Positions 3,709 to 6,620 of a stretch of DNA of 8,943 bases are shown here, one piece after another (the stretch's first letter is position 1; each line of letters begins with the position of its first letter). Source of the DNA: Thermococci archaeon (GTDB lineage: Archaea; Hadarchaeota; B88-G9); the NCBI GenBank assembly GCA_003660555.1, contig QMUK01000049.1:1-8943 (forward strand), given 5' to 3'. The position numbers and the translations under genes are program-made. The notes beneath the pieces are model-generated. The model worked only from the letters and a program-made list of their open reading frames with translations, made no database searches and was not told the DNA's origin.

Positions 3709-4547
3709 GGATTGGCACCTCCAAATTCAAGCAAACTAGATTGTCTAGGCAACATCTTCTTGAAAGAAACAGAGTCCTTATCTATTATAACTCTCAATCC
3801 AGTGTCTGCCGGAACGGTTCTGACACCAGTTTCCTCCTCTATCCTCTGACACTCACTCTCAGGTCCTTTCTGTATCATTTTCAGCCCCATGTGAGTTACC
3901 ACCATTAACTCAGGACCTATTTCGTCAGCTAATCTAAGAGCATCCTCTGTACAAAGGTGCCACCTAATCCTATCCTTCCCAGGTCTAGTAACGTTGGCTA
4001 TTAGCACTCTAGCTCCAGAGTGCTCTCTTTCCAATTCCCGATAGTACTCTGTATCCGATGTATAGGACAATATCTCCCAGTCCTTGTTTCCTCTGAGTTG
4101 GAAGCCCACCGTATAGGGATCGCTATGCTTTGCCTCAGTTGCTCTCACCGAATATCCCCCTAGCGAAAACTCTTCTCCAGCTTCCATCATCACAGACTCC
4201 TTAACTCTTTCTCTATGGTATTTGGATATAGCAGGCCCTATTCTACCATCTCCCTCCAAGACGCTTTTTACTGAGAGGAGTACTCCTCTCCTTCTAGTCA
4301 TTCCATACGTCATAGCTTCTATCACTACTTCAGCATCCGTATAGTGGTCCGGATGACAGTGAGTCACGAAGAGAGACGTCACTCTTCTAGGATCCAAGCC
4401 TAATTCACTTGAGGTCAATATGGCTCCAGGTCCAGGATCTACTTGCATGATCTCTTTGTTAAACGTAATCCTAAACCCTCCTGTTCTCTTTCTCTGTGTT
4501 ATGGTGGCGAACCTCCCTCCACCACTACCCAAGAACAATACTTCCAT
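3678..4547 (-). CDS. Metallo-beta-lactamase-fold hydrolase, RNase Z/PhnP-like
   Basis: A 289-residue single-domain MBL protein. It begins MEVLFLGSGGG, the usual first strand of RNase Z/PhnP-type enzymes. The metal-binding set looks complete: H63-C-H65-P-D67-H68, H141 (in AKHSDPYTVGF), D165 (in SYTSDTEYY) and H219 (in VVTHMGL). H197 (RWHLCTEDAL) matches the extra histidine of the HxxxxEA motif in RNase Z/PhnP-like proteins. A two-metal phosphodiesterase or nuclease activity is therefore likely, but the substrate cannot be read from sequence. I see no clear RNase Z exosite arm, so calling it tRNA 3'-processing RNase Z would be too strong. The ATG at 4547 shares its A with the TAA stop of ABCE1, and GGGGGA sits about 7 nt upstream. 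Its last codons contain the ribosome site of valS. Its position between ABCE1 and ValRS suggests an RNA-related job, which is inference. Confidence 0.85.
   Translation of the reverse strand: MEVLFLGSGGGRFATITQRKRTGGFRITFNKEIMQVDPGPGAILTSSELGLDPRRVTSLFVTHCHPDHYTDAEVVIEAMTYGMTRRRGVLLSVKSVLEGDGRIGPAISKYHRERVKESVMMEAGEEFSLGGYSVRATEAKHSDPYTVGFQLRGNKDWEILSYTSDTEYYRELEREHSGARVLIANVTRPGKDRIRWHLCTEDALRLADEIGPELMVVTHMGLKMIQKGPESECQRIEEETGVRTVPADTGLRVIIDKDSVSFKKMLPRQSSLLEFGGANPWIKNTTTKK
3716..3722 (-). promoter_or_regulatory. Ribosome binding site of valS inside the upstream gene
   Basis: GGAGGTG on the minus strand lies 7 nt before the ATG at 3708. It fixes that start and shows that valS translation begins within the last codons of the MBL gene, as expected for translational coupling. 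Confidence 0.8.
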
Positions 4548-6337
4548 TATCGGTCCCCCGAGACGTAGTAGTAATCTCCTTTCTCTCTCTGCTCTCTATC
4601 TAATCTACTACCTGGTTTGTTTATCCTAGGTCTGCCCGTAACGGGGTCTCTCCTGTAGGTGATGTCCATGTCCCTTAAGAAGGTATTCATTCCCTCTCTC
4701 TTGCTAGAGGGAGGGAGAGCCAATCCTCTCTTGCCAGGCTCACCTCTGAATATCATTATCCTGTCTGATATTACGTCAATTAATTGGATATCATGATCTA
4801 TTACCAAGGCAACGGACTCCTTTTTCTCGATTATTCTTCTTATTATCCTGGATAGGTTTATTCTCTCTTCCAAATCTAAAAAAGCGGTCGGCTCATCCAG
4901 TATGTACAAGTCAGCTTCCTTGGACAAAGCTGCAGCTATAGCAACTCTTTGTAATTCTCCACCACTCAAGCTACTTATCTCTCTTTCTAGAATCATCTTT
5001 AGCTTCAATGGAGAAATTATTTCAATTTCATACTCTCGTTTACCGAACTCTGGGGATAAAGACCTCAGTAGATCTTCTACAGTCCCTTCGAAGCTCAGAT
5101 CTATGTACTGAGGCTTATGTGATATTCTCACTTCCTCGAACTCCCACTCCACTGAGTCTGGTTCTAACTCTCCAGCTAGGATCCTGGCGAAAGTGGTTTT
5201 CCCTATACCATTGGGTCCTAAAACACCGATAATTTCCCCTTTGTAGAATCCTCCACTAGCAATTTCTAGAGAGAATCCATTTAAGCATTTCTTCATTGAA
5301 GGGTATTTGAACAGATAATCTTCCTCCCGTTTAATGTCAATAGGTGGTTTTATCTCGAATTTTATCTCATACTCTCGAATTTTAACGTTTTCAGTTTTAA
5401 GATATCCTTGAAGAAATGAGTTCACACCCTCCCTGACACTATACGTAGAGGAGACAATGCCGTAAACTCCAGGTTCTCCGTAAATCACGTGGACGTAATC
5501 CGATATGAAGTCCAAAATCGTCGCATCGTGCTCCACTAGGACTACTCCTTTCCCCATCTCTGAAATCTCTCTTATCGCTTTAGCGACGTTTATTCTTTGG
5601 TAGACGTCTACGAAGCTACAAGGCTCATCCAGTATGTACAAGTCAGCTTCCTTGGACAAAGCTGCAGCTATAGCAACTCTTTGTAATTCTCCACCACTCA
5701 AGCTACTTATCTCTCTGTCTAGAACTTCTTCGATTTCCAGTGTATTCGTCAGCTCACTTAGTACCCCTCTCTCGTCCACTCTCTGCAGTAACTTCTCTAC
5801 TTTCCCGGAATGTACTCTTGGAATCAAAGACACATTCTGGGGCTTGTAAGAAACTCTTATTTCCCCATTTCCAATCATTTCAAAGTATTTTTGTAACTCG
5901 GATCCCTTAAAGAACTTAGCAACATCTGACCAGTCTTTCTCTTCGCCCAAATCTCCTAAATTCGGCTTTAAAGTGCCAGATAATATGGAGAGAGCAGTGC
6001 TCTTACCGACACCGTTTCTGCCTATGACTCCTACGGACTTCCCCAATCTGACCACTGGGAGCCGGTACAATCTAAATGAATTTAGGCCGTATTGGTGAAC
6101 ACAGACTTCCTTTAGCTCTTCAGGTAAATTAACAACACGTATTGCCTTGAAAGGACACTTATTGACACATATTCCACATCCTGTGCACAACTCCTCTGAG
6201 ATAATAGCTTTCCCCGTTTCCTCATCTATTTTTATAGTATCTAGAACACCACCTCTTACCCTAGGGCAAAACCTCACGCACTCTGTATTACACTTGTTCG
6301 GTCGACAGAGTTGCTTATCTACTACCGCCACTCTCAA
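4547..6337 (-). CDS. abcE1: ABCE1 (Rli1) ribosome-recycling ATPase
   Basis: Cytoplasmic twin-ATPase that splits ribosomes after termination; 596 residues, full length. The N-terminal Fe-S domain has all eight cysteines for two [4Fe-4S] clusters (C11, C16, C20, C24; C51, C54, C57, C61). NBD1 has Tyr83 of the Y-loop, Walker A GRNGVGKST (106-114), the ABCE1-specific helix-loop-helix insert (FKGSELQKYFEM), signature LSGGE (213-217), Walker B YILDEP (234-239) and switch H270. A hinge around 286-332 (YGEPGVYGIVS) precedes NBD2: Walker A GPNGIGKTT (374-382), signature 457-461, Walker B 478-483 and H515. The C-terminal RRDPVTGRPRINKPGSRLDREQ is typical. The TTG start at 6337 gives the conserved MRVAVVDKQLC and has AGGAGGAT 10 nt upstream. 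It overlaps the 101-residue gene by 23 bp and the MBL gene by 1 bp. A 95-bp segment is duplicated exactly between the two NBDs. Confidence 0.97.
   Translation of the reverse strand: MRVAVVDKQLCRPNKCNTECVRFCPRVRGGVLDTIKIDEETGKAIISEELCTGCGICVNKCPFKAIRVVNLPEELKEVCVHQYGLNSFRLYRLPVVRLGKSVGVIGRNGVGKSTALSILSGTLKPNLGDLGEEKDWSDVAKFFKGSELQKYFEMIGNGEIRVSYKPQNVSLIPRVHSGKVEKLLQRVDERGVLSELTNTLEIEEVLDREISSLSGGELQRVAIAAALSKEADLYILDEPCSFVDVYQRINVAKAIREISEMGKGVVLVEHDATILDFISDYVHVIYGEPGVYGIVSSTYSVREGVNSFLQGYLKTENVKIREYEIKFEIKPPIDIKREEDYLFKYPSMKKCLNGFSLEIASGGFYKGEIIGVLGPNGIGKTTFARILAGELEPDSVEWEFEEVRISHKPQYIDLSFEGTVEDLLRSLSPEFGKREYEIEIISPLKLKMILEREISSLSGGELQRVAIAAALSKEADLYILDEPTAFLDLEERINLSRIIRRIIEKKESVALVIDHDIQLIDVISDRIMIFRGEPGKRGLALPPSSKREGMNTFLRDMDITYRRDPVTGRPRINKPGSRLDREQREKGDYYYVSGDR
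4890..4984 (-). repeat. Direct repeat copy B (ABCE1 NBD2, signature to Walker B)
   Basis: This 95-bp segment is identical base for base to 5622-5716, 732 bp away and in the same frame. It encodes R452 to P483 of NBD2. With one mismatch the match extends to 4992. Outside it the two NBD coding sequences diverge quickly. Confidence 0.95.
5622..5716 (-). repeat. Direct repeat copy A (ABCE1 NBD1, signature to Walker B)
   Basis: This is the partner of 4890-4984 and encodes R208 to P239 of NBD1. The 31 complete codons from R208 to E238 match exactly, including the choices at six-fold Ser, Leu and Arg codons. The first differences are D207/E451 on one side and the wobble base of P239/P483 on the other. 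Confidence 0.95.
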
Positions 6338-6620
6338 GTCCCAACATCCTCCTGAGTGAGGAAAGAGCGTCTTTTAGTTCTTCGAACCCCAGAAGAGTCA
6401 CTTCCCCGTCTTCCGCTATCAATACTTTTCTCCCGAAGTCATCCTCTTTCTTAGCGATTTTCTTCCCTAGTATTTCCTTACATTGTATTTCCTCCTTAGA
6501 ACATAGCTGTAACATCTTTTCTCTTGAAAACCCCCTTATTCTGCCGACTATTTTTATCTCTCCAGAGCTCGGACACGGTGAAACCTCTTCCAACTCCAAC
6601 TCCAGCTCTTCTGGAGTCAT
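6315..6620 (-). CDS. Unrecognised 101-residue protein between sufS and abcE1
   Basis: I do not recognise this family. The protein is small, soluble and charged, with no signal peptide or membrane segment. It starts with an acidic stretch (MTPEELELELEEVSPCPSS), followed by a likely strand GEIKIVGRIRG (about 21-31). The middle carries LCSKEEIQCKEILG, then a likely hairpin (RKVLIAEDGEVTLLGF) and a C-terminal helix (EELKDALSSLRRMLGL). Its only cysteines are C16, C40 and C47. The ATG at 6620 forms a 4-nt ATGA overlap with the sufS stop, and GGAGGTG lies 11 nt upstream inside sufS. Its end overlaps abcE1 by 23 bp and carries that gene's ribosome site. Tight coupling on both sides supports a real gene. 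Its place between a sulfur donor and an Fe-S protein hints at a sulfur/Fe-S role, but three cysteines without a known motif do not prove it. Confidence 0.8.
   Translation of the reverse strand: MTPEELELELEEVSPCPSSGEIKIVGRIRGFSREKMLQLCSKEEIQCKEILGKKIAKKEDDFGRKVLIAEDGEVTLLGFEELKDALSSLRRMLGLESGGSR
6346..6353 (-). promoter_or_regulatory. Ribosome binding site deciding the TTG start of abcE1
   Basis: AGGAGGAT on the minus strand ends 8 nt from the TTG at 6337, with its GGAGG core 10 nt away. The nearby ATG at 6347-6345 overlaps this site and is in the frame of the upstream small gene, so TTG is the credible start. It yields the conserved ABCE1 N-terminus. Confidence 0.7.

Follow-up and report, generated by a model that had tools for sequence, protein, structure and literature searches.

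Recurrent concerted evolution of prokaryotic paralogues has been described for 26 genes, seven of them archaeal, including mtrA, mtmB and archaeal histone (PMC6053082). In those cases, the copies within a genome are closer to each other than to their orthologues, silent sites included, which that survey credits to recurrent gene conversion, and the ABCE1 blocks of several archaea described below behave alike. The cases of PMC6053082 are separate paralogous genes, whereas the partners in ABCE1 sit within a single gene, as domains whose roles are not equivalent, and a block of 30–45 codons alone is homogenised. Intragenic homogenisation is known from repeat proteins (PMC5120217) and from spider silk genes (cited through PMC6053082), where, as in ABCE1, repeats within a gene are closer than orthologous ones; these cases are repeat arrays, while ABCE1 has two domains of different roles approximately 240 codons apart. 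Efficient gene conversion in an archaeon is likewise described for Haloferax volcanii, but the intermolecular process there evens out entire genome copies rather than the domains of a gene (PMC11276520). ABCE1 is absent from the archaeal table examined in PMC6053082, and no report of conversion between the nucleotide-binding domains (NBDs) of ABCE1 was found in the open-access literature, to which the search was confined. Conversion between NBD1 and NBD2 of ABCE1 is apparently without an earlier report, the closest known phenomenon being the concerted evolution of separate paralogues.

ABCE1 splits ribosomes, and its two ATP sites behave very differently despite near-identical motifs, the cause of which is debated (PMC6124641; PMC12937102). 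In each ATP site, the Walker A and Walker B motifs come from one NBD and the signature from its partner (PMC6124641; PMC6656783). The window, i.e., the whole stretch of DNA analysed here (8,943 bp), is contig C60 of a 150-contig, 1.3-Mb archaeal assembly and carries the only ABCE1 gene of its genome. The product matches the NCBIfam equivalog NF009945 for ABCE1/RLI over its full length at 874 bits (cut-off 469), and Pfam assigns Fer4_RLI, Fer4 and two ABC_tran stretches to it, so that the equivalog match is accompanied by the Fe-S domain and both NBDs. Its nearest solved structure is 3j15_B (E 9e-206), and the nearest ABCE1 among the genomes compared, from outside the genus and family of the window, has 56% amino acid identity. 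The gene and its repeated block are laid out as follows:

4547–6337, minus strand: abce1 (RLI), TTG start, 596 amino acids, Fe-S domain followed by NBD1 and NBD2.
5622–5716, minus strand: NBD1 copy of the block, residues 208–238, REISSLSGGELQRVAIAAALSKEADLYILDE; 95/95 nucleotides identical to 4890–4984.
4890–4984, minus strand: NBD2 copy of the block, residues 452–482; 95/95 nucleotides identical to 5622–5716.
5717–5724, minus strand: eight further nucleotides upstream of the NBD1 block with one mismatch (a D/E codon), giving a 103-nt repeat at 99%.
4985–4992, minus strand: eight further nucleotides upstream of the NBD2 block with one mismatch, giving a 103-nt repeat at 99%.

A 101-amino-acid open reading frame without a Pfam match overlaps the abce1 start at 6315–6620 on the minus strand. 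A sequence-only reading of the window had reported a perfect in-frame repeat from signature to Walker B, extending to 103 bp with one mismatch, and the repeat search returned it as described: a direct repeat of 103 nt at 99% (4890–4992 and 5622–5724) with a spacing of 732 nt, or 244 codons in frame, around a perfect core of 95 bp that amounts to 31 codons plus 2 nt in the same frame. The block comprises the ABC signature, a helix, Walker B and the catalytic glutamate. From the motifs and the numbering of PMC6124641, S214 and the catalytic E238 have their equivalents in the NBD1 copy, and S461 and the catalytic E485 in the NBD2 copy. Elsewhere in the 1.3-Mb assembly, there is no further copy or second source of the block.

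Outside the block, 69 of 181 aligned NBD1/NBD2 residue pairs are identical, and the same codon is used at 26 of these 69, where codon usage predicts 27.1; silent sites there are saturated. Inside the block, all 31 codons are shared, whereas local codon usage predicts 11.3 (P approximately 2e-15 given the protein, or 2e-14 when codon usage is drawn from the window gene alone, the model assuming independent sites so that the exact exponent is not to be relied on). The identity of the block is due to neither chance nor protein constraint; the sequence-only reading had likewise deemed selection on the protein alone insufficient. The block begins and ends sharply at homologous positions, and the domains keep their identity in the downstream flanks, with profile log-odds (positive values being NBD1-like) of +13 to +14 bits for NBD1 and −10 to −13 bits for NBD2; the six residues 5′ of the block do not discriminate between NBD1 and NBD2.

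A comparison independent of the codon-usage model was obtained from 363 abce1 genes of whole genomes across archaea, in which the longest exact NBD1/NBD2 match was measured. The median was 11 bp, and an in-register match of 85–130 bp was found in only seven genes, the next longest being 46 bp. These matches are 130 bp in G082, 102 bp in G862, 100 bp in G511, 99 bp each in G880 and G040, 95 bp in the window and 85 bp in G521. The seven span four families (f1, f17, f74 and f151): the window belongs to f1, G511, G880 and G862 belong to f74, G040 and G082 belong together, and G521 stands by itself. Sampling was uneven, f74 having been targeted after G511 was found and the phylum of G040 having been targeted too, so that 7/363 is not a frequency; before the targeted sampling of f74, the count was 5/324. 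The longest match within the gene reached at least 24 nt in 37 genes, in 35 of which it lay in register at the signature-to-Walker-B block. Matches of 30–46 bp (L260, L266, L185, L143, L057, L323 and others) were not counted as events, though several are nominally significant, and may be older or smaller conversion tracts; G883 alone is taken up below, since sister species polarise it.

Assembly chimerism, in which one half of the gene is misassembled from reads of the other half, had been named as the main alternative, and the window does offer some grounds for it, being one short contig of 150 with a repeat of 95 bp that can exceed an assembler k-mer. Such an error would, however, have to exchange homologous blocks without a shift of register or frame and still leave each copy within the flanks proper to its own NBD, and in other archaea the two blocks usually share only about 10 of 31 codons (median), too unlike for reads to cross-map. 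Furthermore, G511, G880 and G862 are single-contig genomes with the same pattern, which removes a chimera as a general explanation and makes it very unlikely for the window.

The support for concerted evolution comes from these other lineages, not from that of the window. G511 and G880 belong to one genus, and G862 belongs to another genus of the same family. The blocks of G511 and G880 agree at 33/33 amino acids but at only 14/33 codons (79.8% DNA identity), the same divergence as that of the whole gene (79.5%), while the NBD1 and NBD2 blocks inside each of the two genomes are 100% identical. Thus, 11 of 16 fourfold sites in the block differ between the two species and 0 of 17 within a genome. 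In G862, NBD1 and NBD2 share 32/32 codons of the block, against 10/29 shared with G511/G880. In the genus of G040 and G082, the same codon is used at 38/39 and 40/40 shared residues within the genomes and at 17/36 and 19/37 between them; in G062, the third member of that genus, the contig ends inside the gene and only NBD2 is comparable. The nearest neighbour of each f74 block is the other half of its own gene, while the flanks group by domain with those of relatives. Copies within a genome are therefore more alike than orthologues in both G511/G880/G862 and G040/G082, and identity within genomes together with silent divergence between species implies that the halves were homogenised after the species split, in each lineage. 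The pattern is one of concerted evolution of both blocks by recurrent intragenic gene conversion in at least two archaeal genera, with a minimum of seven homogenisations when one is counted per genome.

The same comparison bears on a constraint at the DNA or RNA level, such as codon choice or an RNA signal, that would hold the copies identical without copying. In both domains, it is the most highly conserved part that the block encodes, and the 324 genes pooled show a mild excess of shared codons within it (3142/5667 against 2557 expected, compared with 7503/15776 against 7214 expected outside), though conversion would raise this excess too. Most archaea lack any such identity, and a constraint of this kind should not let silent sites diverge between species whose copies match internally; it is refuted for G511/G880 and for G040/G082. 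The silent-site comparison among relatives that the sequence-only reading had proposed against constraint was decisive wherever it could be made, and a constraint is a highly improbable cause in the window. A domain-scale event, in which an NBD was deleted and duplicated anew or one half was exchanged for that of a foreign ABCE1, would also leave an in-register repeat, but is scarcely credible given an identity limited to 95–103 bp with sharp ends, downstream flanks of ordinary NBD1 and NBD2 type, silent saturation in the remainder of both domains, and a genome with two block copies and one ABCE1 gene only.

Non-reciprocal recombination within a single abce1 gene, i.e., intragenic, ectopic gene conversion from one NBD half to the other, very probably produced the 95-bp repeat, and the process is recurrent in at least two genera. 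The copying occurred at the level of DNA, recurs in other archaea and is confined to the block. Gene conversion, as originally suggested, is strongly supported by these data, as a recurrent process in other archaea and not as a one-off. Protein similarity between the NBD halves, and with it DNA similarity, is greatest in the signature-to-Walker-B stretch, and this peak of likeness makes the block the natural place for strand invasion or template switching to start. Some 30–45 codons would then be copied from one half over the other, up to the point where homology runs out, and the tract ends coincide with the end of protein similarity. For the pathway, we infer strand exchange of the RadA type or template switching during replication, and the rate of the process and its effect on the enzyme are likewise matters of inference.

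NBD2 had been considered the likely donor in the window on account of the LDEP motif in the NBD1 copy. This residue is indeed NBD2-like, but it is a single site among several, some of which are NBD1-like: the diagnostic sites of the block form a mosaic, five NBD1-like and six NBD2-like. The profile log-odds of the block (−1.8 bits against all archaea and −2.2 bits against its own phylum) are too near zero to assign a donor, genuine NBD1 and NBD2 blocks being tens of bits apart in the family profiles, and NBD2 is not supported as the donor. The mosaic fits several patchy conversions or a long evolution as one unit under the demands of both sites. Values elsewhere are intermediate in f74 (+2 to +3 bits) and in G521 (+6 bits, with only five relatives), and the blocks of G040 and G082 lean towards NBD1 (+24 to +28 bits). 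In G883, NBD2 reads QKLLI with CTA, the codon of its own NBD1, in place of the TAT (QKLYI) of sister species; this is a short tract that three sister species polarise as copied from NBD1 to NBD2. The event in the window had also been called recent. None of the 10 fourfold sites of its block differ between the copies, which excludes saturation as seen elsewhere in the gene and bounds the age weakly, but does not imply recency in absolute terms.

Each block carries the signature of one ATP site and the catalytic glutamate of the other, and homogenised species are natural swap experiments. With the signature, helix and Walker B identical for both sites, any asymmetry would have to arise elsewhere in the protein. 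It is an evenly balanced proposition that the block is, in several archaeal lineages, a single evolving unit that serves both ATP sites and stays identical through ongoing conversion, the asymmetry then being encoded outside it (Walker A, Q-loop, H-loop, hinges and Fe-S domain) or reduced. Family f74, to which three of the homogenised species belong, also holds L381, which is closely related and nearly identical to the ABCE1 of PDB entries 6tmf and 3ozx; by this likeness, f74 is most likely Sulfolobaceae, and the homogenised species have a close relative of a structurally solved ABCE1 within their family. L381 itself (genus g291) has the NBD1 signature LSGGGLQ and not LSGGELQ, as in 6tmf, so that the signature of one NBD is already deviant there. 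NBD phylogenies may be distorted at the homogenised block.

ABCE1 is regarded as essential. Repeated conversion has nonetheless taken place inside this gene, despite a direct repeat able to delete a domain: repeats of 95–130 bp at a distance of approximately 730 bp could also remove one NBD, the products of which are presumably lethal and so not expected to appear. During the survey, the phylum of the window gave no ABCE1 match (NF009945, E ≤ 1e-30) in 10 of its 28 genomes, namely, G001–G004, G009, G010, G012, G013, G026 and G027. They follow clades, including all four genomes of f2 (88–95% complete), both of genus g3, and also g9 and g11, and reflect genuine loss, extreme divergence or contigs missing from the assemblies. 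Similarly, in the phylum of G043, every sampled member of f228 (G722, G738, G759 and G760) and f224 (G715 and G729) was without an ABCE1 match at E ≤ 1e-100; these genomes are small (0.6–0.9 Mb, 91–95% complete). Second, more divergent ABCE1-like genes above the family cut-off were identified in G156, G553, G566, G812, G813, G816, G821, G824, G827, G837, G846 and G852, which are larger archaeal genomes.
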